Assembly (NCBI GenBank): GCA_947460235.1
Contig: CANHGK010000007.1
Location: 1-64,000, forward strand
DNA length: 64,000 nucleotides
DNA from: Paenibacillaceae bacterium
GTDB taxonomy: Bacteria > Bacillota > Bacilli > Paenibacillales > CANHGK01
Direction: 5' to 3'
Of this stretch, positions 8,822-54,670 are shown one piece after another (positions within the stretch are counted from its first letter, which is position 1; every line of letters begins with the position of its first letter). The translations under genes and the position numbers were made by a program. The notes beneath the pieces are model-generated. The model was not told the DNA's origin, did not search any database, and was given only the letters and a program-made list of their open reading frames with translations.

Positions 8822-8857
8822 TGTCTTTGCGTTACCGATTGAAAGGGGATGTTGGCC

Positions 8858-11800
8858 ATGTTTCAAACCTTCACAAACAAGCGTCAAATTCAAATCGGAG
8901 TGTATTTAGCGATCGTTGTATGTATACTTTTCTATTTGTCATTGTTACCGCAAACGGTGCATGCCGGTGCTGCGGCACTGCGCTCGGAAACGATTGCCCA
9001 GCCGAATGGGGATAAATTCAAGGCGAGTACATATGGAGACGAATGGGTAAACTGGACAACTACTCAAACCGGAGATGTCGTCATTAAAAATACGGATGGA
9101 TATTGGAATTACGGAAAAGTGGTTGGAGATGAATTAAAACCCAGTTCGAAACGTTTTGATCCAGATACGGCGAATGTCAAAATTAAACCATACAGTTTTT
9201 CATTGAAACAAGCAGATGCGGCGGGCTTTGCAAAAAGTGCTTGGGCATCAAAAGCGGCGGCAAGAAGCGCGATGGCAGGTCCTTCCAAAGCTACCTCATC
9301 TAACTCCTCCACCACTTCTTCAGAGGTAGTAAGCGCAGGGGCAAGTACGCCATTTTTAGGGAATGTCAAAATGTTGACGATTTTAGTTGAATTTAATGAC
9401 GCAAAAATTAAAAATACGGATGCGACATGGAACGCAAAAATGTTCTCCTCAACTGGGAATAGCGTTCGTAATTACTATAATGAAACTTCAAATGGTAAGT
9501 TAATTTTGATGCCTGCTGAAGAAACAAACGGCATTTCAAATGATGGGATTGTAAAAGTTTGGATCAAGACGAACCATCCAAATCCAACTTCGACTGGCGC
9601 AATCAATCAACAAATTGTAAAAGATGCATTAACGTTGGCGGATCAATATGTGAATTTTTCTTCGTTTGATACGAACCACGATGGGACGCTAACGAATAAT
9701 GAACTAGATCTGGTTACGATTGTCGCTGGATATGAAATGTCCTACGATTCGTCGACGCCGCATGTTTGGGCGCACAAATGGTCTTTATATGGCAGTACAT
9801 TAGCGCAATATGATGGAGTTTATGTTGCAGGTAATGATACGAATTCAAGTTATGCTCAATTTGGCGAGTTTCATGGATTGGTTAATACGGCATCCATTGG
9901 GGTCATTTGTCATGAGTTGGGTCATACGCTGGGGTTGCCGGATTTGTATGATACGACTGGGAAATCTGCCGGGATTGGCATTAGTAGTATTATGGCTTAT
10001 GGTAGTTGGAATACGATTCCGGGCGGTCAATTAGGAGATACGCCGGATCATTTTGATGCGTGGTCCAAACAACAATTGGGTTTTGTGACACCGGAAGTTA
10101 TCGCGACTTCTGTGAATCAAACGTATACGTTGAAATCAATTAGCACCGGCCAATACAATGCCATTCGGATTAATACATCCTTACCTTATGAATATTTCTT
10201 ATTAGAGAATCGTCAATTCGAAAAATATGATCGGAGTCTAAATCCGCGCGTAGACAAAGGCGGTATTGCAATCTGGCATATTGATGAATCGAAGTCTGGA
10301 AATCAGACCGTTACACAAAAACTCGTGGATTTGATGGAAGCAAATGAAGGAATCATCGGATACAGTGAAAATGATACAAGTCAGGCGTATTCACCGTCGA
10401 GACCTTATTATTCCGTTGGAAATGTGACCGATGCGAATCAAACTTCCAAGCCGAACACGAATTTTAATTCAAATTACCCATCTGGGTTATCAATTTCTGT
10501 AAAAAGCGCTCCATCGCCTTCCATGGATGTACTTATTAATTATAAAATTAATGATTTATCACCACCATCGCAACCAATGGATTTAATTGCAAGTGCGAAT
10601 GGTGCAACTGGTGTTACTTTGAGTTGGTCTCCTTCTTATGATAATTATGGTGTAACAGGGTACAGTATATTCCAAGACTTAAGTCCGATTGGCACCAGTT
10701 CAACAAGTTCATTCTCACTATCTGGTTTGACACCTGGTCAAAGTTATTCATTTAGTGTTCAAGGTTATGATGCAGCTGGAAATAAATCTCCGATGTCAAC
10801 ATCGGTTTCGATCACACTGCAAGTCGTGTCATCACCACCGCTGTTAATTTACTATAAATCGTCATTTACAGGTGCGCCATATATGCATTACCGTCTTACT
10901 GGCGGAACGTGGACGACCACTCCGGGGATATTAATGAATGGATCAGATGTAAGTGGTTATTCCAGTCTAATGATTGATCCAATGACAGCACCATCGATCG
11001 AGGCAGCATTTACGAATGGTGATGGTGTGACGTGGGATAATAAAGGTGGAACTAACTATATTATTCCTGTTGGGAGTGCTGCTGTAACGATTGAAAACAA
11101 TCAAATGAAAATCGGAAAACCGGTTATTGTTACTACTGTGATTGATACATCAGCACCGACAGTTCCGACAACAATTGTTTCATTAGCAAAAACGGATACA
11201 ACCGTAAATTTGAGTTGGACAGCATCTACAGATGATATTGGCGTTACCGGTTATGAAATTTCTCGCAATGGTGTGAAAGTCGGAAATAGTACAGCGACAA
11301 CGTATAATGACGCCGGATTAATTGCGAATACGTCTTACGGTTATACGGTTCGAGCGTTCGATGCATCGGGAAATTATTCTGCGGCGAGTACTGCACTTTC
11401 TGTGATTACGAATCCAAAGATCGTGACGACTGTCAATTCAGTTACGGTTTATTACAAACGCACAATCACGACAGGTACACAATACATTCACTGGAGACCC
11501 GTTGGTGGAACATGGACAACAGCACCTGGACTTGCAATGTCAGTTGCAGAAGTGAATGGTTATGCAAAAGCGACACTTTCAATCGGTACTGCAACATCTA
11601 TTGAAGCAGCATTTAATATCAATGGGAGTTGGGATAGTAAAGGTGGGTTAAATTATTCAATTCCTATGGGGATTCAGACGGTCGAAGGTGGAATTGTTAA
11701 AGCAGGCGCACCAGCAGGCGTTACAATCGATTCCATCGCACCAACGGTTCCAACGAATGTAACATCTCCGTCGAAAACCACTACATCGGTTGGATTAAGT

Positions 11801-14068
11801 TGGACAGTATCCACGGATAATCTTGGTGTAACAGGTTATAACATATTGCGCAATGGGACGAAAGTGGGCACATCGACAACCGCTTCGTATACCGATACCG
11901 CTTTACTCGCGAATACGGCCTATAGTTATACAATTGTAGCCTTTGATGCAGCGAACAACTTATCTTCAGCAAGTACGCCGTTGATTGTTACAACAAATCC
12001 TGCAACACCGGTCATTAATAATACCTTAACGATATATTACAAACGCATAGTGACAACGGGAAATCAATACATGCACTGGCATCCAGTTGGTGGGGCATGG
12101 ACGACGGCTCCTGGACTTGCGATGACTCCGGCAGAAGTGGCAGGATATGCAAAATCTACGGTTTCCATCGGAAGTGCAACATCAATCGAGGCTGCATTTA
12201 CCGTTAATGGTTCTACATGGGACAACAAAGGTGGGTCTAACTATTTCATTTCAATGGGGACACAAACCGTAGAAAACGGTGTAGTCAAATCGGGCGTTCC
12301 TGTAGTAGTCATTGCGGATACAACGGCTCCAAGTATCCCTTCGAATGTGACATCACCATCAAAAACGGATACTACGGTTGGATTGAGTTGGAATGCATCG
12401 ACAGATAATATTGCAGTCACAGGGTACAATGTATTGCGCAATGGAACGAAAGTTGGAACAACGGTAACGACCGCGTATTCCGATAATGGATTAGTTGCAA
12501 ACACAGCTTATAGTTACACGATTCAAGCATTTGATGCAGCAAATAACTTATCTTCAGCAAGTATGCCGTTGACTGTTACAACGAATCTTGCAACACCGGT
12601 CATTAATAATTCGCTTACAATTTACTATAAACAATCAATATCAACAGGAAATCAATACATGCACTGGCATCCAGTTGGTGGGACATGGACGACGGCTCCT
12701 GGACTTGCGATGACACCCGCAGAAGTGGCAGGTTATGCAAAAACTACGGTTTCAATCGGAAGTGCAACGTCAATCGAAGCCGCATTTACAAAGGATGGGA
12801 AAGTTTGGGATAATAAAAACGGTGCGAATTATTTGATTCCAATGGGAATACAGACGATCGATAATGGTTTGATCAAAATAGGTGTACCTACATCAGTTAT
12901 TGCAGACACGGTTGCACCAAGTATCCCTTCTAATGTGACATCACCATCAAAAACGGATACTACGGTTGGATTGAGTTGGAATGCATCGACAGATAATATT
13001 GGTGTAACGGGTTACAACATATTGCGCAATGGAACGAAAATTGGAACAACGGTAACGACCGCGTATTCCGATAATGGATTAGTTGCAAACACAGCTTATA
13101 GTTACACGATTCAAGCATTTGATGCATCGAACAATGCGTCATTAGCAAGCGCGGCCATTAGCATAACGACGAATCCATCGACTCCTGTCACCAATAACAC
13201 AATCACCATTTACTACAAACGCACTGGATTAAGTGGTACGCAATATTTGCACTGGCGTCCAACAGGAGGGAACTGGACGGTAGCCCCGGGGCTTGCAATG
13301 ACTGCTTCTGACGTTTCCGGTTACGACAAAGTGACGATCTCAATTGGAGCGGCAACTACAATTGAAGCTGCATTCAATTGTAATGGTGTTTGGGATAATA
13401 AAGGTGGGCCAAATTATACGATTCCAATGGGTACTCAAACAGTCGAGAATAGTGCAATAAAAACTGGTGCGCCTACGGTGACTGTTACCCCGACAGATAC
13501 GACTGCTCCAAGCATACCGGTGAATTTGATTTCTCAATCTAAAACGGACAAATCGGTGCAATTGGTTTGGACTGCTTCGACTGATAATATAGGGGTTGTT
13601 GGTTATGAGATATATCGAAGTGGCACAAAAATTGGAACATCATCAACAACGTCGTACTCTGATAGTGGTCTGACGGCAAATACAGCGTATAGCTACACGG
13701 TAAAAGCTTATGATGCTGCGGCGAACTATTCGGCGACCAGTTCGGCACTGAGTGTGACGACGAATCCGGTAATTGCAGCGGTGAACACGGTCACGGTATA
13801 TTACAAACGCAAAGTGGCAACGGGCACGCAAAACATCCATTACCGTCCGATTGGCGGAACTTGGACGGCTGCACCTGGTGTTCCAATGACGAATGATTTG
13901 AATGGATTTGCAAAAATCACAGTTACAATTGGTTCAGCTTCTGGGATTGAAGCTGCTTTTAACGCAAGCAATACAAATTGGGATTCAAATAATAACATGA
14001 ACTACAAAACGGGTACTGGTGACTGGACGATTGATAACGGGGTTTTAAAAGCCGGAAAGCCGTATTAA
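8858..14068 (+). CDS. Secreted M6-family metalloprotease with six FN3-CBM25 units
   Basis: This is a giant exoenzyme of 1736 aa. A signal peptide covers about residues 1-33 (GVYLAIVVCILFYLSLLP...VHA). The peptidase domain, of the immune inhibitor A (M6) type, covers about 170-560. It has the zinc motif HELGHTLGLPDLYD at about 352 and a calcium-loop-like DTNHDGTLTNNEL near 270. From about residue 567 the chain is six alternating pairs of a fibronectin type III domain and a CBM25 starch-binding domain (YYKR...HWRPVGGTWT...GLAM...IEAAFN...WDNKGG.NY). No sortase motif or SLH domain is seen at the C terminus. ATG 8858 is preferred over ATG 8849, which touches the AAAGGGG ribosome binding site. Cleavage of starch-associated proteins is inferred from the architecture. 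Confidence 0.93.
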   Translation: MFQTFTNKRQIQIGVYLAIVVCILFYLSLLPQTVHAGAAALRSETIAQPNGDKFKASTYGDEWVNWTTTQTGDVVIKNTDGYWNYGKVVGDELKPSSKRFDPDTANVKIKPYSFSLKQADAAGFAKSAWASKAAARSAMAGPSKATSSNSSTTSSEVVSAGASTPFLGNVKMLTILVEFNDAKIKNTDATWNAKMFSSTGNSVRNYYNETSNGKLILMPAEETNGISNDGIVKVWIKTNHPNPTSTGAINQQIVKDALTLADQYVNFSSFDTNHDGTLTNNELDLVTIVAGYEMSYDSSTPHVWAHKWSLYGSTLAQYDGVYVAGNDTNSSYAQFGEFHGLVNTASIGVICHELGHTLGLPDLYDTTGKSAGIGISSIMAYGSWNTIPGGQLGDTPDHFDAWSKQQLGFVTPEVIATSVNQTYTLKSISTGQYNAIRINTSLPYEYFLLENRQFEKYDRSLNPRVDKGGIAIWHIDESKSGNQTVTQKLVDLMEANEGIIGYSENDTSQAYSPSRPYYSVGNVTDANQTSKPNTNFNSNYPSGLSISVKSAPSPSMDVLINYKINDLSPPSQPMDLIASANGATGVTLSWSPSYDNYGVTGYSIFQDLSPIGTSSTSSFSLSGLTPGQSYSFSVQGYDAAGNKSPMSTSVSITLQVVSSPPLLIYYKSSFTGAPYMHYRLTGGTWTTTPGILMNGSDVSGYSSLMIDPMTAPSIEAAFTNGDGVTWDNKGGTNYIIPVGSAAVTIENNQMKIGKPVIVTTVIDTSAPTVPTTIVSLAKTDTTVNLSWTASTDDIGVTGYEISRNGVKVGNSTATTYNDAGLIANTSYGYTVRAFDASGNYSAASTALSVITNPKIVTTVNSVTVYYKRTITTGTQYIHWRPVGGTWTTAPGLAMSVAEVNGYAKATLSIGTATSIEAAFNINGSWDSKGGLNYSIPMGIQTVEGGIVKAGAPAGVTIDSIAPTVPTNVTSPSKTTTSVGLSWTVSTDNLGVTGYNILRNGTKVGTSTTASYTDTALLANTAYSYTIVAFDAANNLSSASTPLIVTTNPATPVINNTLTIYYKRIVTTGNQYMHWHPVGGAWTTAPGLAMTPAEVAGYAKSTVSIGSATSIEAAFTVNGSTWDNKGGSNYFISMGTQTVENGVVKSGVPVVVIADTTAPSIPSNVTSPSKTDTTVGLSWNASTDNIAVTGYNVLRNGTKVGTTVTTAYSDNGLVANTAYSYTIQAFDAANNLSSASMPLTVTTNLATPVINNSLTIYYKQSISTGNQYMHWHPVGGTWTTAPGLAMTPAEVAGYAKTTVSIGSATSIEAAFTKDGKVWDNKNGANYLIPMGIQTIDNGLIKIGVPTSVIADTVAPSIPSNVTSPSKTDTTVGLSWNASTDNIGVTGYNILRNGTKIGTTVTTAYSDNGLVANTAYSYTIQAFDASNNASLASAAISITTNPSTPVTNNTITIYYKRTGLSGTQYLHWRPTGGNWTVAPGLAMTASDVSGYDKVTISIGAATTIEAAFNCNGVWDNKGGPNYTIPMGTQTVENSAIKTGAPTVTVTPTDTTAPSIPVNLISQSKTDKSVQLVWTASTDNIGVVGYEIYRSGTKIGTSSTTSYSDSGLTANTAYSYTVKAYDAAANYSATSSALSVTTNPVIAAVNTVTVYYKRKVATGTQNIHYRPIGGTWTAAPGVPMTNDLNGFAKITVTIGSASGIEAAFNASNTNWDSNNNMNYKTGTGDWTIDNGVLKAGKPY
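12005..13180 (+). repeat. Tandem 588-bp FN3-CBM25 repeat units inside the M6 protease gene
   Basis: Two adjacent units (about 12005-12592 and 12593-13180) match over long stretches of DNA, for example AATCAATACATGCACTGGCA and the FN3 segment starting AAGTATCCCTTC (12331 and 12919). The 588-bp period equals 196 codons. The high DNA identity points to a recent in-frame duplication. The other four units are more diverged. Confidence 0.85.
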
Positions 14069-18183: not shown

Positions 18184-18273
18184 ATAGATAAAACTAACGA
18201 ATATCATTTATTTGTGTTAGTTTACATAACACAAATAGAACAAGGTATGTTAAAAATTGCTGGGGGGAATGTT

Positions 18274-19728
18274 ATGTATCCTGTAGATAAAAAAATATAT
18301 CGCCAGCAGCAGCCGATGGATGAAGCCTATCTATCAAACGGTGGTGTCAAGGAGTATTACCAGAAAATAATGAAATATTTTCATGATATGACGATTGATC
18401 AACGTAATAAACTCAAAGGAACTTGCGACAGACGTATGATGGAAGAAGGCGTAACCTTTACGTTGTATCGTCAAGAAGATCATGCTGCACTCGAACGCAC
18501 AATTCCGTTTTGTCCAATACCGCGCGTTATCCCTGAACAAGAATGGAAAGTTCTCGAAAAAGGACTAATACAACGAATTCGCGCATTAAATCGGTTTATC
18601 TGGGATATCTATCATGAACAGAATATTGTTAAAGATGGAATTTTAAGTCGCAAAGATGTGTTATCAAATTGTTATTTTTCATTAGAAATGACAAAAATCC
18701 GAATGGCACACGACGCATATGTTGCCATTGCTGGAATTGATTTGATTCGTGATTCGAATGGTGATTATTTGGTGCTTGAAGATAATTTGCGAACACCTTC
18801 AGGATTTTCATATTTATATAAAAGTCGGGATTTAATGATGAGGCAAGCGTCGGATATTTTTTCGAAACATCCAGTCCGGGATTTGAACTCCAGTTTTAAT
18901 TCATTTATTGATGTACTAAAAAGTTTAGATCCAGGTCAAAAATCGAATCCGGTCATTGCTTTACTGACACCTGGGCGATTCAATGCTGCATATTATGAAC
19001 ACGTGTATTTGGCACAGCAAATGGGGCTCGAACTTGTCGAAGGTCAAGATTTAATTCATATTGATCAGAAAATCTACATTAAACATACGCATGGATTGAA
19101 GAAAGTCGATGTCATTTACCGAAGGTTGGATGATGATTATATTGATCCATTATGTTTCAGATCTGACTCCTTGCTTGGCGTTCCAGGACTCATGAGCGCA
19201 TTCCGCGCGGGAAATGTAATGATTACGAATGCACCGGGTACGGGGATTGCGGATGATAAGGCAATTTATCGTTTCGTCCCTAAATTTATTAAATATTATT
19301 TAAACGAAGAACCAATATTGAAAAATGTACCGACCTATGTAATGTCAAATCCTGAAGAACGTGAATTTGTACTGCAAAGGTTAGAACAAATGGTCGTCAA
19401 GGAAACATCACTTTCTGGGGGTTATGGGATGTTAATTGGACCAACAGCGTCAGAAGAAGAAGTGGAGTTATTCCGCAAAAAAATTATCAATGAACCTGAA
19501 AAATATATTGCACAACCTACCATTTCGCTAAGCACATCACCTACCATCGATAACGGGCAAATTGTACACCGGCATATCGATTTACGCGCTTTTGTTTTAT
19601 CCGGAGGTGACCGAAATGTACACGTGATACCAGGCGGGTTGACACGTGTAGCGATGAAAGAAGGTTCTCTCGTCGTCAACTCCTCACAGGGTGGCGGCGT
19701 AAAAGATACATGGGTTTTGAACAATTAA
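18274..19728 (+). CDS. Circularly permuted ATP-grasp family protein (DUF404/DUF407 type)
   Basis: This ATP-grasp ligase has a permuted domain order and is thought to catalyse ATP-dependent amide or peptide bond formation; its substrate is unknown. Characteristic text includes FCPIPRVIPEQEWKVLEKGL, DLIRDSNGDYLVLEDNLRTPSG (metal/ATP site), VIYRRLDDDYIDP, NAPGTGIADDKAIYRFVP and the C-terminal RHIDLRAFVLSGG. ATG 18274 behind GGGGGG gives 484 aa, the usual family length; the track's ATG 18214 has no clear ribosome binding site. The gene heads a three-gene operon with alpha-E and transglutaminase-like genes, the conserved partners of this family. No membrane segment or signal peptide is seen. Confidence 0.9.
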   Translation: MYPVDKKIYRQQQPMDEAYLSNGGVKEYYQKIMKYFHDMTIDQRNKLKGTCDRRMMEEGVTFTLYRQEDHAALERTIPFCPIPRVIPEQEWKVLEKGLIQRIRALNRFIWDIYHEQNIVKDGILSRKDVLSNCYFSLEMTKIRMAHDAYVAIAGIDLIRDSNGDYLVLEDNLRTPSGFSYLYKSRDLMMRQASDIFSKHPVRDLNSSFNSFIDVLKSLDPGQKSNPVIALLTPGRFNAAYYEHVYLAQQMGLELVEGQDLIHIDQKIYIKHTHGLKKVDVIYRRLDDDYIDPLCFRSDSLLGVPGLMSAFRAGNVMITNAPGTGIADDKAIYRFVPKFIKYYLNEEPILKNVPTYVMSNPEEREFVLQRLEQMVVKETSLSGGYGMLIGPTASEEEVELFRKKIINEPEKYIAQPTISLSTSPTIDNGQIVHRHIDLRAFVLSGGDRNVHVIPGGLTRVAMKEGSLVVNSSQGGGVKDTWVLNN

Positions 19729-19753
19729 GGGAATGTCTCGGAGGTGGGGTTTT

Positions 19754-37952: not shown

Positions 37953-40900
37953 ATGATTGCCAAATTGTTTTTGAAATCCCGTAAGTGGACATCAATCAGT
38001 CTTGTGATGATGTTGATTGTCCAAATCATGGCAGCATGGATTACATCAGTGGCAGCATTTGCAGTTACATCTTCAATTAGTATGGCGAGCTTTACGGAAC
38101 AACCAGGAGGTAAGGCTGCTTGGACAATTCCAGGTGATTTTAACAGCTGGGACAAGACAGCTGGGTTCAAATTGAAACATTTAGCAAATGGTGATTTTTA
38201 TGGTTATTCTGCTAATTTAACGGCTGGAACTTATGGATTCAAATTCGTGTTAAATGACGATTGGAATCAATCCATTGGTGATGGCGCAAACAATTTTAGT
38301 TTGACATTAGCGAACGATGGGATTGTAAATTTCTACATCAAGGGGAATTCAACGGGGGATGCACAAATCCGCGTTGAAGGAGCAACAGTGGCGGGGATTA
38401 CTTCTTATTCACCTACTAGAGATTCATCCAATTGGCCTCGCCTGGTCGGTAGTACAGCTGGTTTACTTGGTGTAACAGCTGATGGTGGTTGGTCACCGAG
38501 TACATCTGATTTATATTTCATAGATTATAATTTTGATAACACAGTATATATGCTTCAACGAGATTTATCTGTTGGATCATCAGACGCAAAGGTCGTTTTT
38601 GGCTCGAGTTGGAGTGATCCGAACTATGGGGTTGGAAGTGGTAATTTAACAGTTGACGTAACCGATGCTGCAGTACCGGTTGTGTTGAAAATTGATGCGT
38701 CTGCGCAGACACCGGAATTGTCACAAGTAACATCTCCTACACAAAATGTTGTTGGCGTTGATATGACTAGTTTTCCAGTACAACCGGGCGGGATTGCTAC
38801 ATGGACGATTCCAGGAGATTTTAACAGTTGGGATAAAACAGATGGATTCAAATTGAAACATTTATCAAATGGTGATTTTTATGGATATTCTGCTGATTTG
38901 AAAGCTGGAACTTATGGATTCAAGTTTGTTTTAAATGATGATTGGAATCAATCGATTGGTAATGGTTCAAATAACTTTAGTTTGACATTAGCGAATGATG
39001 GAATTGTGAATTTCTACATTAAGGGTAATACAACGGGTAATGCAGTAATCCGAGTTGAAGGAACGACGGTAGCAGGGATTACTTCGTATACACAAGCTCG
39101 AAATTTGTCAAATTGGCCTCGACTTGTTGGGGGAACTGCAGGATTACTAGGTGTAACAGCAGATGGTGGCTGGTCACCAAGTACGTCTGATTTGTATTTT
39201 GTCGATTATAATTTTGATGGTTCAGTATATTATTTACAGCGTAATTTGCCAGTGGGTTCCTCAGATGCAAAGGTTGTATTTGGTTCGAGTTGGAGTGACC
39301 CGAACTATGGGGTTGGAAGTGGAAATTTATCCGTTAACGTAACCGACGCCACAGAACCAGTTGTATTGAAAATTGATGCGTTCGCAGAAACAAAACAATT
39401 ATCACAACGTACAGTTGGTCAAATTGATCCTGTTGCAGATGTTATTGCCGAACAACCAGGCGGATTGGTTAAGTGGACAATACCAGGTGATTTTAACAGT
39501 TGGAATGAATCGACAGGTTTCAAAATGAAACATATCGCCAATGGTGATTATTATGAGTACTCAACCGTGTTAGACCCTGGTACGTATTCTTTTGCATTTG
39601 TCATGAATGGAAGTTGGGATAATAAGGTATCAAACAATGGATTAAATTATAGTATGACCGTATCTAAACAATCCAAAGTGAATTTTTATGTGCGTGGAAC
39701 GAAACCTGATAATACGGTCGTTCGGGTAACTGGTGCGACGGTTCCAGCGATTCCTGTTTATGTCCCATCGCGAGATGAATCAAATTTGCCAAGACTTGTT
39801 GGTTCAATTGCTAAACCACTGGGAGTTACAGCGAATGACGGCTGGTCGCCGAGCACTTCGGAATTGTATTTTGTAGATTACAACTTTGATGGTTCTGTGT
39901 ACCTTTTACAACGTGATGTACCGAAAGGTAATTATGATGCAAAAGTAACACTAGGCACAAATTGGGATGAAAATTACGGTGGCAACGGACCAGGAGATCC
40001 AAACTTAAGTTTAAATCTGATTGATCCGTCTAATCGACTATTGTTTACTTTTGATGCTTCACAACCGGAAGGTCAACGGAAATTAGAGGCTAAACTACTT
40101 ACGGACGGCTTTGATGGCGTGGTTTCTGCTGGTTCTGTTTATTACGATAGCCGCAACGAATTGTTTAAAACACCGTTTGGAGCGCTCAAACAAGCGCAAC
40201 AAGATTTAACATTACGAATCCAAGCGGATGAAAAAGATGTTCAACGTGCAAGGGTTGAATTGATGCATCCGGATCAGTCGACAACAACTTATGATATGCA
40301 TTTTGCATTCAGAAAAGCTAACAAAGATTACTTTGAAGTGACAATTCCAAAAGCTGAGTTTGATCAATATGGTATTTGGGGTTATAAGTTTGTATTAACA
40401 GATGGCCAGTCAAAAGTAGAGTATGGTGAAGATAACAAACGCGGAGGAAGCGGGAATGCAACCGCGGACGATGCGCTTACGTATGATTTGACGGTATATA
40501 AATCGGATTTCCAACCTCCGACTTGGTTGCAAAGTGCACGCATTTATCAAATTTTCCCGGATCGTTTCTTCGATGGTGACAAGTCCAATAACCGTGCAAA
40601 AGTTGTTGATGGATCACGCGGATATCGTAATGAAGGGGATATGAACAACTATCGCAAGAGCCAAAAAATAGAGTATTTTGATGGTGGAGTTGCAAATGAT
40701 CCTGTTCCAGATCAAGTGTGGGGAACTACTGCGGATTATCCAGAAAATCCACAACGTAGTTATCCAGAAAATAAGGCGTACTTTCCAGATGCGAAAAGTG
40801 ATGGAGAATGGTCTAATGAATTTTATGGTGGGGACTTACAAGGGATAACTCAAAAACTGAATTATATTAAATCTCTTGGATTTAATACAATCTACTTAAA

Positions 40901-43900
40901 TCCAGTCGAGTGGTCAGAATCGAACCATAAATATAATGCGACTGACTATAATCATGTGGATCCAATGTTTGCTCAACCAGTATACAATACACCTGGAGAA
41001 CCGAAATCTGGATTGAATTACGCAGCAACAAGGATTGCATCAGATAAGGTGTTTACAGACTTAGCCAAAGCAGCAGATGAAGTTGGCATTCGTTTGATCG
41101 CAGACGGGGTATTTAATCACATCGGTGATGATTCCATTTACTTTGACCGTTATGAAAAATATCCGGAAATCGGTGCGTATGAATATTGGGCAAAAGTGTT
41201 TGATCGGATGAAATCAGCTAGTTTAACCCAAACTGCTTCAGAACAGGCAATTAAAAACGAATTTAAAAATAAAGTGAATCCGACGACTGGTCAAAAGTAT
41301 ATAGATGAGGATTTCAAATATACTTCCATGTTTACGATCACTAATGATTATCGTTTCTGGGATCAAAAGAAATTGTTCTCGTCGTATAATTTTAATGGTT
41401 GGTATGGCAACGATTCATTGCCTGAATTTGATTCCAAATCCCAAGACCAGAATGAACTAGAAGATATTCCAGGGATGAATGAATGGAATAACAAAGTTTA
41501 TCGTGATCTTGTAATCGGTTATGACCTTAATGGTAAAACAGATCAACAAAAATTAAGTGCAGTACAAAATACAGCTTCACAACGTTGGTTGTGGATGGGG
41601 GCAAATGCTTGGCGTTTAGACGCGGCGCGTGATGTATCCTCAGGTACGTGGAAGCAGTTCCGAAAAGCGGTGAAATCTGTCGCTGGGTTGGATAACGTCA
41701 ATGGCAAAACCATTGAAGAACCAGCCTTGATTGCGGAGGATTGGGGAAATGCGAGTGATTTGTTGCTTGGAGATCAATTCGATACTGTCATGAACTATCG
41801 TTTTATTGGAGCCATTGAACCGTTTTTAACGGGAATTAATGATGCAACTGCTGCTGATACAGCGGAAAGTTTAGAGTCAATTCGAGAAGATTATCCGCCT
41901 TATGTATGGAAATCATTATTAAATTTACTTGATTCTCATGACACAACACGATTTATTACGCGAATGGATGATTATAAATTAAATCAAGAATCATTAAAAG
42001 TAGCACCTGAACCAAAAAATGACGCATATCAACGCGCAGCACTTGGAATTATTATGCAATACGCTTACCCTGGTGCACCAATGGTTTATTACGGTGATGA
42101 AGTTGGTCTTCCAGGAACAAAAGATCCGGATTCAAGACGCTTCTTCCCTTGGTCAAAAATTCAAGGTTCTAATAACTCCTATTCTGCAACAGGAGCAGGT
42201 TCTGAACTGTTTACTTTGTATAAAAAGCTTGGACAAGCACGTTCAGATCATAGTGTGTTTGCAGATGGCGATGTGAAAATTTTATATGCTGAAGGCGACG
42301 TAATTGTGATTGGACGTCGAAATGCGACCGAAAGCGCAATTGTTGCGCTAAATCGTGCCGATACTTCGAAAAAAGTTACTTTAAATCTAAAGGGTTATAT
42401 TGCTAATGGAATAACATTTAGTGACGCATTAGATAATGTATCAGATGTCTCTGCTACAAATGGAAGTATTGAATTGACCATTCCAGCTGTAAAAGGTGTC
42501 GTCTTAATCAGTAATGCTCAACTCAATGTTCCACAAATTCCGCAAAACGTTGTTGAGAATGTTGGACAAAATGGTGTGGATTTAACGTGGGATGTTGTAT
42601 CTTCAACGTCTTATGATGTATATCGCAGTGAGTGGCCAGGTGAAATCGGTTCTAAAATTGGTACCATTGCCGCTGGCGATAATGGAGCATATACGGATTC
42701 AGTAGTTTCAAAAGGTCAGCACTACTATTACCAAATCGTTGCACGAAAAGATTCTGGTGAAACATCTGCTCCATCAAGTCAATTGGATGTATATGTACCA
42801 TGGACCGTTAGTTCGGTTTCAGCACCAGATATAACGGGTGCTACTGTTGATCTAGATAATGGAACACAGACGGGAGCGATCAAGGTAACAATTGACGTTC
42901 CGGGGGTGACCAACGATTCGAATCTTGCAGACCTAAAAGCCAACGTGATTCTAGGAGATTTGGAAATACTTTTAAATGGTGAAATTATTCAAAGATCACC
43001 TCTGAAATATTTGGAAGATTCTTCTGGTAAAAAAGTGTATTATGCTACATTCCAGCCGCTTTCTGCAGATACATTCGATGTTCGCGCACGCGTTTCGACG
43101 GATTTTGGAAATCACTATACTACTTCCAGTTCCACGCAAATTACGATCGCAAAAACATCAAGTGATACGACTGCACCTGATGCTGTAACGCTTAGTGCAA
43201 TCAATGAGCAATCCAATCAGGCGCATTTGAATTGGAGTGCAGCAACTCAAGATGTGAAATTACTTGTGATTCAACGTAAAAAACAAAGTGAACAAAGTTA
43301 TGAAAATATTGCATTCTTACAATCAGATGCAATTCAGTATGCTGATGTAAATGTGCACAATGGCGTTACCTATGAATATCGTGTTGTTGCCTATGATCAA
43401 GCGATGAATGTTGCAAATTCGAATACGGTGTCCGTAACACCACAAATGGCGATCATTGATGTTACCTTGCATTTACACATGAATGATGATTTAGGTGATA
43501 CGGATAATGTCAACGTCTCAGGTACATTTAACAATTGGTCGACAACATCATCGATTTTGCAAGTTCCATCTGGTGCAACGACTCGAGAAACTTTAGAATA
43601 TAAATTCAAAATGTTCTCAGGTAAACAAATCCAGTACAAATACAACCGAGGTGACTGGAACACCGAAGCATTGACTTCAAATGTCGCTGAAGATATTAAT
43701 TCACATAAAAACTTTGCATTCTCCACAACTGGAGACAATATGCAAGTAACGATTATGGATCAAGGCGATCATAAAATGCTTGTTGATGATTATGTTCTTC
43801 GCTGGGTTGATTTACCAGTAATTGTGTATTTACCGAAAAAACAAGCAGTCTCAAGATTTAAAGATACAACGCAAGAAGTCACTTATGAAACGACTTCCGA

Positions 43901-45002
43901 TACGACTGATCTGAAATTAAAAGTTCCATTTGGAGTTGATGTGAAAGTAAACAATCAACTCGTAGGTTCATCTGAACATGATGGTGTCGGAAACCTTTGG
44001 ATTAAAAACATTAGTACTGCCGTTAAAACGACGACCTTGAACGTTGCGGTTGCTCCTAGTGCTGAAACTCTTGCACTTTCTTGGTTTCCAAAAGTTGGAG
44101 AAGATTTTACGAAGAATGTAGCGAAATCGACACAAAATTTCAAGGTTACGATCACGAATCCAAATTATACTGCAACAAAACTTGAATCGTTCAAATTATC
44201 AAATTCTATTATTGATAACAATGATGCAGGGATTAATGTGAGTTGGAATTCGGTTGCAGATCAAAGCATAACCGAATATCGTATTTATGTTGATGGTGTC
44301 GCAGTTGCAAAAGTTCCAGCGAACAAAACAAGTTATGAAATAACTGGTCTTTTACCAGACACTGTTTATAAAGTTACCATGGGAACTGGAAATGGGTCAG
44401 GTAAATTCTTGTTGTCAGATTCCAAAAACTTCCGTACCGCGGAGTTGCCAGTGGCTATACCGGTGCCAACATCGGTGCCAACACTAGTTCCGACTCAAGT
44501 GCCAGTATCAACACCAACGCCAATGGTTACAGCTACACCGGTTCCAACAGCATCACCAACTACGGCAGCATCAGCAACGCCAATACCAATCGTAGTTGTA
44601 CCAACACCAACAATTGTAGTACCAATTACGACACCGACCGTAATTTCTGGTTCAACACCATCAAGTACACAACCAACGGTGATTTTTAACCCAATTATCT
44701 TAACTCCAGTTAAGATTACAAATGCAACAGCAACAGCAACTATTCCTGAGTTTGATAAGACGGGTAGTTACAAGCAAACGCTTAAAATTGAAGCAAATTC
44801 GATTCAGGCAACTTTCTTGGTAGGTAATATTGATAAGCGATTGAAAGTGTCGTTCGTAGTACCAAAAAACCAACGTCGAGCAATCGAATCATTTAATTAC
44901 ACGATTTTCAAAAATAGCACCTTAAAAGTTTGGGTAAAATTAAAACAATCATACAAATATCCGATTGCCATTGATTTGGTATTTGGAATCGTTGAGAAAT
45001 AA
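37953..45002 (+). CDS. Secreted modular amylopullulanase (GH13)
   Basis: This giant extracellular starch-debranching amylase is 2349 aa. The signal peptide is about 1-36. Three ~225-residue units (about 49-725) follow, each two X25/CBM48-like modules (IPGDFNSWD...GTYGFKFVLNDDWNQ). An N-terminal amylase domain covers about 726-845 and the GH13 barrel about 850-1520, with nucleophile Asp in AWRLDAARDV (about 1222), Glu in LIAEDWGNA and Asp in LLDSHDTTRF. The rest is FN3 (about 1525-1615), a beta module, FN3, a CBM20-like domain (VSGTFNNWSTTSSILQ, about 1836-1930), FN3, a Pro/Thr linker and an unassigned C-terminal domain. No SLH domain is present. Cleavage of alpha-1,4 and alpha-1,6 bonds is expected from family resemblance. 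The ATG follows GGGGGAACAAGG. Confidence 0.92.
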   Translation: MIAKLFLKSRKWTSISLVMMLIVQIMAAWITSVAAFAVTSSISMASFTEQPGGKAAWTIPGDFNSWDKTAGFKLKHLANGDFYGYSANLTAGTYGFKFVLNDDWNQSIGDGANNFSLTLANDGIVNFYIKGNSTGDAQIRVEGATVAGITSYSPTRDSSNWPRLVGSTAGLLGVTADGGWSPSTSDLYFIDYNFDNTVYMLQRDLSVGSSDAKVVFGSSWSDPNYGVGSGNLTVDVTDAAVPVVLKIDASAQTPELSQVTSPTQNVVGVDMTSFPVQPGGIATWTIPGDFNSWDKTDGFKLKHLSNGDFYGYSADLKAGTYGFKFVLNDDWNQSIGNGSNNFSLTLANDGIVNFYIKGNTTGNAVIRVEGTTVAGITSYTQARNLSNWPRLVGGTAGLLGVTADGGWSPSTSDLYFVDYNFDGSVYYLQRNLPVGSSDAKVVFGSSWSDPNYGVGSGNLSVNVTDATEPVVLKIDAFAETKQLSQRTVGQIDPVADVIAEQPGGLVKWTIPGDFNSWNESTGFKMKHIANGDYYEYSTVLDPGTYSFAFVMNGSWDNKVSNNGLNYSMTVSKQSKVNFYVRGTKPDNTVVRVTGATVPAIPVYVPSRDESNLPRLVGSIAKPLGVTANDGWSPSTSELYFVDYNFDGSVYLLQRDVPKGNYDAKVTLGTNWDENYGGNGPGDPNLSLNLIDPSNRLLFTFDASQPEGQRKLEAKLLTDGFDGVVSAGSVYYDSRNELFKTPFGALKQAQQDLTLRIQADEKDVQRARVELMHPDQSTTTYDMHFAFRKANKDYFEVTIPKAEFDQYGIWGYKFVLTDGQSKVEYGEDNKRGGSGNATADDALTYDLTVYKSDFQPPTWLQSARIYQIFPDRFFDGDKSNNRAKVVDGSRGYRNEGDMNNYRKSQKIEYFDGGVANDPVPDQVWGTTADYPENPQRSYPENKAYFPDAKSDGEWSNEFYGGDLQGITQKLNYIKSLGFNTIYLNPVEWSESNHKYNATDYNHVDPMFAQPVYNTPGEPKSGLNYAATRIASDKVFTDLAKAADEVGIRLIADGVFNHIGDDSIYFDRYEKYPEIGAYEYWAKVFDRMKSASLTQTASEQAIKNEFKNKVNPTTGQKYIDEDFKYTSMFTITNDYRFWDQKKLFSSYNFNGWYGNDSLPEFDSKSQDQNELEDIPGMNEWNNKVYRDLVIGYDLNGKTDQQKLSAVQNTASQRWLWMGANAWRLDAARDVSSGTWKQFRKAVKSVAGLDNVNGKTIEEPALIAEDWGNASDLLLGDQFDTVMNYRFIGAIEPFLTGINDATAADTAESLESIREDYPPYVWKSLLNLLDSHDTTRFITRMDDYKLNQESLKVAPEPKNDAYQRAALGIIMQYAYPGAPMVYYGDEVGLPGTKDPDSRRFFPWSKIQGSNNSYSATGAGSELFTLYKKLGQARSDHSVFADGDVKILYAEGDVIVIGRRNATESAIVALNRADTSKKVTLNLKGYIANGITFSDALDNVSDVSATNGSIELTIPAVKGVVLISNAQLNVPQIPQNVVENVGQNGVDLTWDVVSSTSYDVYRSEWPGEIGSKIGTIAAGDNGAYTDSVVSKGQHYYYQIVARKDSGETSAPSSQLDVYVPWTVSSVSAPDITGATVDLDNGTQTGAIKVTIDVPGVTNDSNLADLKANVILGDLEILLNGEIIQRSPLKYLEDSSGKKVYYATFQPLSADTFDVRARVSTDFGNHYTTSSSTQITIAKTSSDTTAPDAVTLSAINEQSNQAHLNWSAATQDVKLLVIQRKKQSEQSYENIAFLQSDAIQYADVNVHNGVTYEYRVVAYDQAMNVANSNTVSVTPQMAIIDVTLHLHMNDDLGDTDNVNVSGTFNNWSTTSSILQVPSGATTRETLEYKFKMFSGKQIQYKYNRGDWNTEALTSNVAEDINSHKNFAFSTTGDNMQVTIMDQGDHKMLVDDYVLRWVDLPVIVYLPKKQAVSRFKDTTQEVTYETTSDTTDLKLKVPFGVDVKVNNQLVGSSEHDGVGNLWIKNISTAVKTTTLNVAVAPSAETLALSWFPKVGEDFTKNVAKSTQNFKVTITNPNYTATKLESFKLSNSIIDNNDAGINVSWNSVADQSITEYRIYVDGVAVAKVPANKTSYEITGLLPDTVYKVTMGTGNGSGKFLLSDSKNFRTAELPVAIPVPTSVPTLVPTQVPVSTPTPMVTATPVPTASPTTAASATPIPIVVVPTPTIVVPITTPTVISGSTPSSTQPTVIFNPIILTPVKITNATATATIPEFDKTGSYKQTLKIEANSIQATFLVGNIDKRLKVSFVVPKNQRRAIESFNYTIFKNSTLKVWVKLKQSYKYPIAIDLVFGIVEK
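38100..40080 (+). repeat. Three tandem ~675-bp X25-type module pairs in the amylopullulanase gene
   Basis: The motif CCAGGTGATTTTAACAG recurs at 38130, 38811 (one base changed) and 39483, giving periods of 681 and 672 bases. The first two copies are highly similar in DNA; the third is more diverged. Confidence 0.85.
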
Positions 45003-45131: not shown

Positions 45132-47117
45132 ATGGCGGTTCAGCGTGACATGCGACAGTACATCGATTATGGGGATGTTAATGTAACCAATGGAATTTCT
45201 GTTTTTGATTGGTCATTTGATGACCATTTTGCATATGATGGTGATGATTTAGGTATTACGTATTCAGAGCAATCTACGAAATTTGCGCTTTGGGCACCAA
45301 CGGCTTCTGAAGCCAATGTTATTTTGTATGAGCGTTGGAATGGTCCGCGCGATCAGATTATCTCGATGGAGCGTACAGACCAAGGTGTTTGGCGTTATGA
45401 ATACGATGGTGATTTACGAGGGAAATTATACACGTTCAGTGTAAAAATAGGTAAGCAATGGAACGAAGCCGCAGATCCTTATGCGAAGGCCGTAGCGGTT
45501 AACGGTGATCGTGGAGTCATTCTTGATTTAAGTTCTACGAATCCTGAACGTTGGAATGACGAGAAACCACCACTTCATAAGGCAACTGATGCCATTATTT
45601 ATGAAGCTTCAATCCGTGATTTTACCGCACATCCATCAAGTGGTGTGGATCATCCTGGTACATTTGTGGGTGCTTGTCAAGCGGGCACAACAACACCAGG
45701 TGGCTTCACGTCGGGGATGGATTATTTGAAAGAGTTAGGCATTACGCATGTTCAATTTTTACCGATGTATGATTTTTGTGAACGGAGTGTAGATGAAACT
45801 CGTCCAGTTCAAGGTCAATATAACTGGGGTTATGATCCGAAAAACTATAATGTCCCAGAAGGTTCTTATTCAACCAATGCGTTTGATCCAATTTGTCGGA
45901 TTCGTGAAATGAAACAAATGATTCAGACACTTCACGATAATGGATTGCGTGTAATTATGGACGTTGTATATAACCATGTTTATGATATTTTTGAGATTAA
46001 TTTTAATAAATTGGTGCCAGGCTATTATTTCCGCTACCATCCTCATGATCGTTCGGTAAGCAATGGATCTGGTTGTGGTAACGATACGGCGAGCGAACGC
46101 AAAATGATGCGTAAATTCATGGTCGAATCTGTCGTATATTGGGTTAAAGAATATCATTTGGATGGATTCCGCTTTGATTTGATGGGTCTTCACGATATCG
46201 AGACAATGATAATGATTCGTCAAAAATTAGATGAAATTGATCCGAATTTAATTATTCTCGGCGAAGGCTGGAATTTGAATACGGCACTCATGTTCGATCA
46301 GCGAGCAGTTCAAATGAATGCGTTCCAGATGCCGCGGATCGCACATTTTAATGATCGGATTCGTGATGCGTTAAAAGGTAGCGTATTCTTTAATGGAGAT
46401 GCGGGATTCATCAACGGGAAACCGTATTTAGAACGTGAAATCGAGAAGGGGATTGCGGCATCGATCCATTTTGATCTTGAGCGTTATGGTTTTGCGAATG
46501 AACCGGTGCAGACGATTACGTATGTCGAGGCGCATGATAACAACACATTATGGGATAAGCTATCGATGACGAATGGTTATCATAGTGAGGAAGTTCGTCG
46601 TGCCATGCAACGGATGAGTATGGCGATTATTTTAACTTCACAAGGGATTCCATTCCTACATGCTGGGATGGAGTTTATGCGTACTAAGTATGGTGAGGAA
46701 AATAGTTATAAATCATCCATCGAAATCAATCAGATGGATTGGGAACGTCGTGGTTGGTTTGATTTTGACGTGCAATATGTTAGAGAACTAATTAAAATCC
46801 GCAAAGAGCATCCTGCATTCCGGATGCCAACGGCAAAAATGATTCGTCAACATTTACATTTTGAACCAGCACCGATGCGTGCAGTTGCCTTTACGCTTCG
46901 TGGTCATGCGAATAATGACCCAAGCCTAAATATCTACGTTGCACATAATGCCAATGGACATGAAGAGTCGCTTGAAATTCCGAATTTGGGTGAGTGGAAA
47001 TCATTGTTTGGGGATGTGCAGTGGATTCGTCATAAACATGCAGCGGCGGACGATGCGATGCAACACGCGAGAATTGCACCGCATACGACTGTTATTCTGA
47101 CTTGTGATGAAGAGTAA
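45132..47117 (+). CDS. pulA: Type I pullulanase (GH13)
   Basis: This debranching enzyme hydrolyses alpha-1,6 links in pullulan and limit dextrins. It is 661 aa with no signal peptide, so it is cytoplasmic. A CBM48-type N-terminal domain (FALWAPTASEANVILYERWNG) precedes the catalytic barrel. The type I pullulanase marker YNWGYDP is present. Catalytic residues are Asp in GFRFDLMGLHD, Glu in LGEGWN and Asp in VEAHDNNTL. The ATG has TTGGGAGGAA upstream. It follows the secreted amylopullulanase but has its own promoter with a cre-like site. Its last 26 bases overlap the end of the opposite-strand NAD(P)-binding gene. It presumably trims branched oligosaccharides after import. Confidence 0.96.
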   Translation: MAVQRDMRQYIDYGDVNVTNGISVFDWSFDDHFAYDGDDLGITYSEQSTKFALWAPTASEANVILYERWNGPRDQIISMERTDQGVWRYEYDGDLRGKLYTFSVKIGKQWNEAADPYAKAVAVNGDRGVILDLSSTNPERWNDEKPPLHKATDAIIYEASIRDFTAHPSSGVDHPGTFVGACQAGTTTPGGFTSGMDYLKELGITHVQFLPMYDFCERSVDETRPVQGQYNWGYDPKNYNVPEGSYSTNAFDPICRIREMKQMIQTLHDNGLRVIMDVVYNHVYDIFEINFNKLVPGYYFRYHPHDRSVSNGSGCGNDTASERKMMRKFMVESVVYWVKEYHLDGFRFDLMGLHDIETMIMIRQKLDEIDPNLIILGEGWNLNTALMFDQRAVQMNAFQMPRIAHFNDRIRDALKGSVFFNGDAGFINGKPYLEREIEKGIAASIHFDLERYGFANEPVQTITYVEAHDNNTLWDKLSMTNGYHSEEVRRAMQRMSMAIILTSQGIPFLHAGMEFMRTKYGEENSYKSSIEINQMDWERRGWFDFDVQYVRELIKIRKEHPAFRMPTAKMIRQHLHFEPAPMRAVAFTLRGHANNDPSLNIYVAHNANGHEESLEIPNLGEWKSLFGDVQWIRHKHAAADDAMQHARIAPHTTVILTCDEE

Positions 47118-51016: not shown

Positions 51017-54000
51017 ATGCGACACACGAAAATTTGGATGATGATTAAAATTGTACTTTCCATGATCTTGATAATGACAAGTGTATTTCCGGCGTTCGGA
51101 TTTGCTGCTACCGTTACATCAGGACAAGCTTCTTCAATAACATTATGGGTGAAATGGGATGTGAATGCTACGTATTTGCATTATCGTCTACCCACTCAAT
51201 CATGGGCAAAGTCTAGTGTTTTACCTTTAATGAACACGACAATTCCTGGGTTTAAAGGTGCGACGATTCAATTGGGCCGGCTAAAAAATGCGGAAATAAT
51301 AGTAACGAACTCTAAAGCAATACCTAATTATAAGAAGTCAACACGATATACATTGAATGGCGGTACGTACACGATTTCGAAAAAAGGATTCGTAAAAGGA
51401 ATGCCTATTAATCATAAGGCGATTGTGTTTTTTCCGGATAATGAGTTTAATCAAACGTATCTTCAATATAAAATTGAAGGTTCCTCATGGATTTCTTATC
51501 CAGGAAAAATTATGGCACCAAGCACAATTCCAGGTTATTTGACGAAAACGATTTCAATGGGTGAAGCAAAATCATTACTTGTACGCATAAATGATGGGAC
51601 GTTAGTTAATGGAGGGGATACTGAAGCTGTTTATCAGATGACTGATTCAGTTTATACAATCCTTAACGGGAAGATCATTCCTGGTGCACCAAATGATACG
51701 GAACCACCCGTTATCAGTCCAATTGTCGTGCCGACAAATACACCGATGCCGGTTGCAACAATTACACCAGTTGTTTCATCGGGGAATAATTCGATCAATA
51801 CTGCAACTCCAATTAGTACACCAACGCCTGTACCAACAGCATATGTAGATGTCACAGCACCAACAATTCCAAGCAATGTTCAATTGTCAATTTTGGCAAG
51901 TGGCGCAGTAGGTATTACATGGAATCTTTCAACGGATCTTTCCGGAATTGATGCGTATATCATTTATCGTAATGATGTGAAACAACAAGTCGTTTCTGGT
52001 AATTCATTTGTAGATAAAGGGTTTTCACCAAATAACACATACATTTATAAAGTGCAAGCGATCGATAAAGCAAATAATTTATCGTCATTAAGTGAAGGTG
52101 TGAAATATCAGGCTCCTGCAGACATTTCTCCACCAACGGCGCCACTATTAAATTTGACATCAAGTTCGGAGACGAAAGTGTCGATCGGATGGACAGCATC
52201 TGAAGATAATTATGGTGTGGCTGTTTATGAAGTATATCGAGATGGCATTAAAGTTGCAGAATCGAAAGATCTTGTATTTAGTGAGAGTGGTTTGGCACCT
52301 AAACAATCGGTTAAATATTCGATTCGATCTGTAGACGTTGCAGGGAATCGCTCACTTTTTTCAAATGAAATTATCGCGGTAACGCCAGAAGACAAAGAAC
52401 CACCGACTGCTCCCACTTCATTAACAGCAATTGGACGTTCGGACAATTCCATCACGGTTTTATGGGGTCAGGCAACTGATAATGTTCAAGTGAAATTGTA
52501 CGAAGTGTTGCGTAATAATGTTGTAGTCAATACAACGACATCAACATTTTTTACAGATAAAGGACTTAAACCAAATGAAGTTTATCAATACAATGTAAAA
52601 GCAATCGATAGCTCAGGAAATCGTTCGTTGAAAGCAGTTGAATTGTTGACATCCACAACTGATGATAAAGTGGCTCCGACGGCACCTACTGTGACCCAAT
52701 TGCTAAGTAAGAATGATTCGGCTGTCAAAATTGGTTGGAACCCAGGTAGTGATAATAATGTGGTTTCTGGTTATCAAATTTTCCGAAATGGTAAACAAAT
52801 ATCTGTCGTAGGTTCAGTCAATAATTTTGAAGATACAAGTGTTTCATCCGGTACCGAATATACGTATACCGTTCGGTCGGTTGATGCGAGCGGAAATGTT
52901 TCTGCAGATAGTGTTGTTTTGAAAGTAACAACCGATCTTCCGGTTACGATTTATTACAAATCCACCGGAACAACGTATGTAAGTTACGGTTATGTTTCAA
53001 GTGGAACAACAGCATCCCAATGGACGGTTTCACCTGGAGTAAAATTAGACGAATCTGAATATATCGGTTACAAAAAAATCGATATTAAATTAGGTTCATA
53101 CAGTTCGATTCAAGCGGCCTTTAACAATGGAGATGGAATTTGGGATAACAATAACTATAAAAACTATTCGTTCACGAAAGGGCTATATACGATTGTTGAT
53201 AAAGTGATTGTAACGGGTAAACCAGTAGCGTCATTACGACCTACGACGACACCAGTTGTTACATCAACTCCACTTGCAACAGGAACACCATATGTGAAAC
53301 CGTCTTCGAGTCCGAATGGTACCGACACAGAGAAACCATCAGTTCCATTGAATTTAAAAGTATTAAATCGCACGGCAACAACAATTCAATTTGGTTGGTC
53401 TGCATCTTCAGATAATGTTGAAGTGACCAAATATGATGTCTATGAGAATGGTGTCTTTGTTGCAAGTGTTTCAGCTGGAATTCAACTGATCAAACAAATT
53501 AATTTAAGCCCGGATTCCATTTATGCCTATTCCGTTGTTGCGATTGATAAAGCAGGTAATCGTTCTGCCGCTTCTGCAACATTAACAACATCGACGACAA
53601 ATCAAATGGTTTCTGTATTTTATAACACGTCGATTACTCAACCGATGTTTCATTATCGCTTGGAAGGTTCAAATCAATGGACGATTCAACCAGGAATTCC
53701 GATGAATCAAACAAATTTAAAAGATTGGTTTAAGGTTGATATTGATTTGGCTGCTGCACAAAATGTTGCAGAAGCTGCATTTTATGTGGGTATGGGTTCA
53801 TTGCCATGGGATAATAATGGAAACAAAAATTATCGTTTTGAGCCTGGAACGTGGTCGGTTTCCAAAGGAGTAATGACAAAAGGAACACCTGCAGGTTATG
53901 CAACACTTACACCATTGCCTACTGCTACACCGACCATTAGTCCGTTAACGACACCGGTTATTGCGAAACAAGCAACGGTTTACTATTACTCCAATGAGTC

Positions 54001-54670
54001 GGTTGCAAACTTGCATTACACATTGGATGGAATTACGTGGACAACGCTACCTGGATTAGAAATGATAAAATCTGAGTTTGCGGATTATTACAAGAAAACG
54101 ATAACCATCGGGAGTGCCAAAAACGCACAAGTAGCATTCAATAATGGTAAAAGTGTTTGGAATAGTAATGGAAATAAAAACTATCTGATTTCAGAAGGAG
54201 TCTGGACTGTAAATAATGAGAACCAATTGTTGGCAGGAACTCCGGTTCCAGCAGTTGGTGTAACGACTTCTCCCAATACGATAGCAACACCATTGCCAAC
54301 GCCAATTGTAGTAACGGAAACACCGCTACCAACGTCAAGCATTACTCCGGTAACAACGACAACACCAGTTCCAGCGCAAGTGGTTGTAACCTTAAAAGTG
54401 AATTATGATACACAAGGTTTGGGCGATATTTGGTGTTATTTCAGAAATGAAGTCGGGGCATGGTCCAACACAAAAATGACGATGGATTCAGGAAACAATT
54501 GGACGATCTCTGAATTGTTAACACCTGGTTTGACGTATCAATATAAATATTTTAAGCTAATTGGTACGGATAAAGCATGGGAATCAATTGATTCGAAAAA
54601 TCATGTACTCATTCCTACTACGGCAAATATTCAAACACAAATAGACACATGGGGATTAAACTTAAAATAA
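51017..54670 (+). CDS. Secreted non-catalytic multi-domain starch-binding protein (CBM25/FN3)
   Basis: This 1217-aa protein has a signal peptide (about 1-30, VLSMILIMTSVFPAFGFAA) and no recognisable catalytic domain. Modules in order: two diverged CBM25-like domains (about 38-225), a Pro/Thr linker, four FN3 domains (about 276-650), a CBM25 (about 650-745, AAFNNGDGIWDNNNYKNYSF), a linker, an FN3 (about 770-860), two CBM25 (about 862-1060, HYRLEGSNQWTIQPGIPM and LHYTLDGITWTTLPGLEM), a Pro/Thr linker, and a terminal domain with CBM20/26-like text (DIWCYFRNEVGAWSNTKM). It may act as a starch-binding scaffold or adhesin. ATG 51017 sits 13 bases after AGAGGGG, so an in-frame CTG at 51011 is a possible alternative start. 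Confidence 0.88.
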   Translation: MRHTKIWMMIKIVLSMILIMTSVFPAFGFAATVTSGQASSITLWVKWDVNATYLHYRLPTQSWAKSSVLPLMNTTIPGFKGATIQLGRLKNAEIIVTNSKAIPNYKKSTRYTLNGGTYTISKKGFVKGMPINHKAIVFFPDNEFNQTYLQYKIEGSSWISYPGKIMAPSTIPGYLTKTISMGEAKSLLVRINDGTLVNGGDTEAVYQMTDSVYTILNGKIIPGAPNDTEPPVISPIVVPTNTPMPVATITPVVSSGNNSINTATPISTPTPVPTAYVDVTAPTIPSNVQLSILASGAVGITWNLSTDLSGIDAYIIYRNDVKQQVVSGNSFVDKGFSPNNTYIYKVQAIDKANNLSSLSEGVKYQAPADISPPTAPLLNLTSSSETKVSIGWTASEDNYGVAVYEVYRDGIKVAESKDLVFSESGLAPKQSVKYSIRSVDVAGNRSLFSNEIIAVTPEDKEPPTAPTSLTAIGRSDNSITVLWGQATDNVQVKLYEVLRNNVVVNTTTSTFFTDKGLKPNEVYQYNVKAIDSSGNRSLKAVELLTSTTDDKVAPTAPTVTQLLSKNDSAVKIGWNPGSDNNVVSGYQIFRNGKQISVVGSVNNFEDTSVSSGTEYTYTVRSVDASGNVSADSVVLKVTTDLPVTIYYKSTGTTYVSYGYVSSGTTASQWTVSPGVKLDESEYIGYKKIDIKLGSYSSIQAAFNNGDGIWDNNNYKNYSFTKGLYTIVDKVIVTGKPVASLRPTTTPVVTSTPLATGTPYVKPSSSPNGTDTEKPSVPLNLKVLNRTATTIQFGWSASSDNVEVTKYDVYENGVFVASVSAGIQLIKQINLSPDSIYAYSVVAIDKAGNRSAASATLTTSTTNQMVSVFYNTSITQPMFHYRLEGSNQWTIQPGIPMNQTNLKDWFKVDIDLAAAQNVAEAAFYVGMGSLPWDNNGNKNYRFEPGTWSVSKGVMTKGTPAGYATLTPLPTATPTISPLTTPVIAKQATVYYYSNESVANLHYTLDGITWTTLPGLEMIKSEFADYYKKTITIGSAKNAQVAFNNGKSVWNSNGNKNYLISEGVWTVNNENQLLAGTPVPAVGVTTSPNTIATPLPTPIVVTETPLPTSSITPVTTTTPVPAQVVVTLKVNYDTQGLGDIWCYFRNEVGAWSNTKMTMDSGNNWTISELLTPGLTYQYKYFKLIGTDKAWESIDSKNHVLIPTTANIQTQIDTWGLNLK

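Follow-up and report, generated by a model that had tools for sequence, protein, structure and literature searches.

To our knowledge, bacterial starch degradation has been studied almost only through amylases. Among the closest described systems are the GH13 amylases MaAmyA and MaAmyB of Microbacterium aurum, in which an array of FN3 and CBM25 domains targets granular starch; MaAmyA requires its CBM25 domains to act on granular starch, though not on soluble starch, and FNIII is regarded as a linker (PMC5093618). The amylosome of Ruminococcus bromii contains a peptidase-dockerin protein, Doc14 (PMC9112005, Table 1), i.e., a peptidase physically attached to a starch-degrading system. On the protease side, the immune inhibitor A family (MEROPS M6; InhA2, PDB 4YU5/4YU6) comprises secreted enzymes with an N-terminal pro-region and the motif HEXXHXXGXXD, an Asp-zincin pattern (PMC3890501). 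Here we describe a gene whose predicted product resembles this family in catalytic-domain fold, zinc motif, secretion and pro-region, but in which six FN3-CBM25 units replace the classical InhA C-terminal part. Like those of MaAmyA and MaAmyB, its FN3-CBM25 array is predicted to target granular starch, whereas the catalytic domain is a zinc protease instead of an amylase. We consider, with a probability of roughly 60%, that this secreted, starch-tethered protease removes granule or matrix proteins, exposing the glucan.

An M6-type protease with six FN3-CBM25 units

The window (the whole stretch of DNA that was analysed, 64,000 nucleotides from a Paenibacillaceae bacterium) carries on its forward strand an ORF at 8849-14068; the earlier note takes as its start the in-frame ATG at 8858, three codons downstream. 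The encoded protein runs from a signal peptide and a pro-region through an M6-type zinc protease to six FN3-CBM25 units, as follows.

8849..14068, +, whole gene, 1739 aa, predicted secreted M6 metalloprotease carrying six FN3-CBM25 units
8849..8965, +, predicted signal peptide, aa 1-39 (by eye: basic N-region, hydrophobic core, cut near TVHA/GA)
8966..9376, +, pro-region-like N-terminal segment, aa 40-176 (QPxGxxFxxxxxGDE motif, from alignment)
9377..10279, +, M6 peptidase domain, aa 177-477 (TIGR03296, Peptidase_M6)
9911..9943, +, zinc-binding motif HELGHTLGLPD (HEXXHXXGXXD), aa 355-365 (from alignment)
10568..10810, +, FN3 domain 1, aa 574-654 (Pfam)
10847..11104, +, CBM25 domain 1, the most divergent copy (69.7 bits)
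11153..11413, +, FN3 domain 2 (Pfam, bounds approximate)
11429..11722, +, CBM25 domain 2 (95.3 bits; 78% identity to a CBM25 of the GSDH protein of the same genome)
11729..12004, +, FN3 domain 3 (Pfam, bounds approximate)
12020..12289, +, CBM25 domain 3 (85.8 bits)
12329..12586, +, FN3 domain 4 (Pfam, bounds approximate)
12608..12871, +, CBM25 domain 4 (91.7 bits)
12917..13174, +, FN3 domain 5 (Pfam, bounds approximate)
13190..13462, +, CBM25 domain 5 (91.5 bits)
13490..13765, +, FN3 domain 6 (Pfam, bounds approximate)
13781..14044, +, CBM25 domain 6 (96.4 bits)

The fusion of an M6 protease with an intact HELGH site to six FN3-CBM25 units, proposed in the earlier note, was confirmed by Pfam, NCBIfam and relatives in the PDB. 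Pfam recovered CBM_25 (E 1.5e-138) and fn3 (E 3e-40) in six stretches each, together with Peptidase_M6 (E 6e-14; PF05547, 52.5 bits against a cut-off of 22), and aa 177-477 matched the full TIGR03296 profile of NCBIfam (positions 1-286, E 8e-54, 183 bits against a cut-off of 110.8). By sequence, the PDB relatives are immune inhibitor A (InhA2, 4yu5) for the protease part, the FN3 of chitinase A1 (1k85) for the FN3 part and, for CBM25, modules from the beta/alpha-amylase of Paenibacillus polymyxa (2lab/2laa) and from an amylase of Bacillus halodurans (2c3v). The motif HELGHTLGLPD is intact, its His, Glu, His and Asp being invariant, along with the surrounding residues, in an alignment of 12 relatives, and the pro-region-like segment is conserved in all aligned M6 relatives. 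Modelled with AlphaFold (mean pLDDT 80), the M6 part adopts a predicted InhA-like fold: Foldseek ranks the InhA2 zymogen structures 4yu6/4yu5 first among its PDB matches (E 2e-15, TM 0.65 by query length), with Akkermansia glycopeptidases next. Identity to InhA2 is nevertheless low (15% in the structural match), and the protease, compared with the InhA family, sits in the TIGR03296 branch. By analogy with the InhA2 zymogen structures, the pro-region may keep the enzyme in a zymogen form, and we infer that the M6 domain, once activated, is proteolytic.

The six FN3-CBM25 units recur every 195-200 aa with 42-77% mutual identity (unit 1 being the most divergent), which excludes chance as the source of the repeats. 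All six modules that had been called CBM25 from the letters lie well above the Pfam cut-off (70-96 bits each against 27.3). The binding site of the B. halodurans CBM25 consists of W34, W74, H26, D81 and N76 (PMC4625611). Equivalents of 2C3V H26, W34 and W74 are kept in every one of the six aligned copies, the N76 position holds Asn in four and Ser in two, and the D81 position is Asn throughout; the same H/W/W triad recurs in the eight copies of three related M6 proteins, so that none of the 14 copies in this set of four lacks it. In a longer structure model that includes the first CBM25 (mean pLDDT 71), the FN3 matches that of chitinase A1, and the CBM25 resembles the maltotetraose-bound 2c3w/2c3x (TM about 0.86, rmsd about 1.9 A). 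Given that the triad is kept in all six copies, starch binding by the tail is likely, judging from the conserved site. The domain assignments of the earlier note are well supported, and so is its idea of an endopeptidase bound to starch.

Relatives and origin of the fusion

The search for an M6 domain followed by CBM25 that the earlier note had called for recovered this architecture in two other species of the same order, both of one genus, as M6-FN3-CBM25-FN3-CBM25-CBM20 proteins (L067 and L070), and the fusion is therefore not unique. These proteins share with the protease the order of M6 and FN3-CBM25, the catalytic motif and the starch modules, but carry two CBM25 and one CBM20 in place of six CBM25. 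They are the only M6-CBM25 cases among 100 genomes of their genus, in which CBM25 proteins are few. Beyond the own genome, no M6-CBM25 protein was found in 399 genomes of the phylum or in 400 of the class, and none was seen on plasmids; a scan of named genomes returned only a distant protein of Longilinea arvoryzae (43% identity) that lacks CBM25, and no description of an M6-CBM25 protease was found in the open-access PMC literature. Most M6 relatives are devoid of starch modules (the tails of the nearest others are Big_2, SLH, FN3-only or absent), so M6 activity in itself is not specially tied to starch.

The tails of M6-CBM25 proteins from different genomes are related to different local proteins. 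The terminal CBM25-CBM20 of L067 and L070 is mostly 65-74% identical to ORF tails in about half of the genomes of that genus, and two inspected ORFs with such a matching tail carry GH13 amylase sequence. The CBM25 copies of the protease, for their part, are closest to those of a GSDH protein (L041, up to 78%) and then of an M6 paralogue (up to 73%), both of the same genome, and this nearness fits FN3-CBM25 blocks having been copied from gene to gene within the genome, as described for MaAmyA/MaAmyB (PMC5093618). Two independent origins of the fusion were also considered and are not demonstrated, given that trees of the M6 domain do not reject a grouping of the four proteins in one clade (AU p 0.279).

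CBM25 across the genome

The genome (2.72 Mb, 99.2% complete, 0% contamination) is the sole representative of its family in the comparison set and holds 98 CBM25 matches, 95 of them above the Pfam cut-off. They are distributed among about 40 ORFs on many contigs, some of these ORFs being contig-edge fragments. Grouped by hand from their Pfam domains, the CBM25 proteins include about 13 GH13-type glycosidases (one isoamylase-type among them), three GH15, three GH57 and one GH31. The premise of the earlier note that CBM25 sits on glucan-active enzymes fails here, as the module is also found on proteases, phosphoesterases, a dehydrogenase and a pilin-like protein. The proteases are the one at 8849-14068, an M6 paralogue (L020:3754-8382, 1543 aa, M6 domain 60% identical) and an S8 subtilase with six CBM25 (L030:5599-10827, reverse strand). 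Two secreted-type PF04185 phosphoesterases bear three CBM25 each (L016:4299-6665, reverse strand, and L019:3405-5735, forward strand) and could target starch-bound phosphate or granule phospholipids. A glucose/sorbosone dehydrogenase (GSDH, PQQ-type) likewise bears three (L041:5604-9785, reverse strand), and a possible starch-binding pilus component (L037:11587-13140, reverse strand) starts like a type-IV pilin (QRGLSLVELL) and continues with FN3, CBM25 and CBM20. In about 13 CBM25 proteins no catalytic domain was found, e.g., a protein of 1580 aa with 13 CBM25 and a CBM35-type domain (L013:4598-9337, forward strand). Taken across this genome, CBM25 looks like a general starch address tag.

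At least one CBM25 was present in 125 of 399 genomes of the order, per-genome counts being lower bounds (at most 11 candidates scored in each). A second small genome of the order, from another family (G002, 2.5 Mb), has 38 CBM25 matches in ORFs of up to 2859 aa and, despite this richness, no M6 match. Two contigs of the genome studied here (G000 C16:1 and C37:1; L045, L023) share one GH13-CBM25-CBM20 gene fragment at their start, where a repeat has probably interrupted the assembly. The only LPMO_10 of the genome belongs to a chitin-type GH18-CBM5/12 protein without CBM25 (L030:1904-4156), encoded directly downstream of the S8 subtilase, and a starch-active LPMO partner was therefore rejected.

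Within the window, the direct neighbours of the protease gene encode a chemotaxis receptor, a subtilase without CBM and an intracellular-type GH13 glucosidase, and together they form no obvious operon. Genes for circularly permuted ATP-grasp, Alpha-E and transglutaminase-like proteins are clustered at 18214-21561 on the forward strand. Further along lie members of the starch-directed set.

37953..45002, +, GH13 enzyme of 2349 aa, starch-attack set (at least six X25_BaPul_like starch-binding-type domains in the first 1000 aa)
45132..47117, +, CBM48-GH13 pullulanase-type enzyme, starch-attack set, following the previous gene (domain profiles)
51017..54670, +, FN3-repeat secreted-type protein of 1217 aa, starch-attachment set (five CBM25 matches, of which four exceed the cut-off; Pfam recovers no catalytic domain)

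Some CBM25 proteins of the genome also have SLH domains and hence sit at the cell surface, which could mean that the protease is held by CBM25 not on food starch but on an alpha-glucan belonging to the surface or biofilm of the cell itself. We regard this as very improbable, given that wall attachment of those proteins is already provided by SLH, which leaves their CBM25 free for an external ligand, and that most catalytic CBM25 proteins are amylases. The protease might instead trim the cell's own starch-bound CBM25 enzymes, releasing catalytic domains or remodelling them: some multidomain amylases are cut after secretion, e.g., the beta/alpha-amylase of P. polymyxa, and about 40 CBM25-tagged proteins are potential partners. 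However, no GH14-type beta/alpha-amylase with CBM25 was present among the own-genome proteins scanned, and the fusion recurs in another genus, where CBM25 proteins are few. Such self-processing would also leave the co-tethered phosphoesterases unexplained; together with the pilin-like protein, they are better explained by an attack on the granule as a whole, and we consider self-processing improbable.

Proposed protein stripping on the starch granule

We postulate that the protein would be exported by its signal peptide, that its N-terminal pro-region would be removed or displaced, and that the six CBM25 domains, on flexible FN3 linkers, would hold the protein on the starch granule through avidity. 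Its M6 domain would then cut proteins on and around the granule, i.e., granule-bound proteins and the storage-protein matrix, which are its inferred substrates on the assumption that the bacterium meets protein-coated plant granules. Removal of these proteins would expose the glucan to the many CBM25-bearing amylases of the cell and free peptides beside it, the protease being one member of a putative starch-attack system of about 40 CBM25-tagged proteins that would work without a scaffold protein.

Granules contain 0.1-0.8% protein, the removal of which raises the hydrolysis rate 2- to 3-fold (PMC10180094), and protease treatment of sorghum flour takes away most of the protein and moderately raises raw-starch digestibility (PMC10931417). 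That about forty predicted secreted proteins share a starch anchor suggests a removal of granule proteins during amylase digestion, and the presence of CBM25 on a pilin-like protein, on both phosphoesterases and on all three proteases, coupled with the slowing of amylolysis by granule proteins, favours protein stripping, the first of the two ideas in the earlier note. The same three tethered proteases could also serve nitrogen acquisition, with the granule as only an address: storage protein and starch are found side by side in seeds and tubers, and a tail that only parks the enzyme in such tissue would bring a gain in peptides rather than glucan. The extent of protein removal from sorghum flour agrees with this (PMC10931417), but the tagged phosphoesterases, dehydrogenase and pilin-like protein imply granule-directed work beyond nitrogen; the activity itself is that of protein stripping and hard to separate from it by sequence, and we hold nitrogen as the chief gain to be unlikely. 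Pancreatic amylase can be inhibited by surface protein (PMC10180094), and the heavy investment in secreted amylases would make it worthwhile to degrade plant amylase inhibitors or defence proteins on or near the granule, protecting the cell's own enzymes. As the chemistry is identical, this too is inseparable from protein stripping by sequence, and we give it little credence as the main role.

A removal of granule proteins would place a peptidase within a starch-degrading system much as in R. bromii, here as a prediction from the gene's domains, but with a different attachment: Doc14 is tethered by dockerin/cohesin to a scaffold, whereas the protease would be held directly by CBM25. A profile search found no Dockerin_1 match in the genome, and a dockerin-based amylosome was accordingly rejected. 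More tentatively, and with odds we place slightly below even, the genome may encode a scaffold-free amylosome, in which CBM25 is the universal tag on about 40 secreted proteins attacking native granules and the M6 protease is the protein-stripping arm. If this is true, the amylases are joined by proteases, phosphoesterases, a PQQ-type dehydrogenase and a pilus component in a complete granule-dismantling system. The protease may find use in starch processing that is limited by granule proteins, and a natural, starch-anchored protease, along with many tagged non-amylases, makes the microbial removal of the non-starch coat of granules directly testable.
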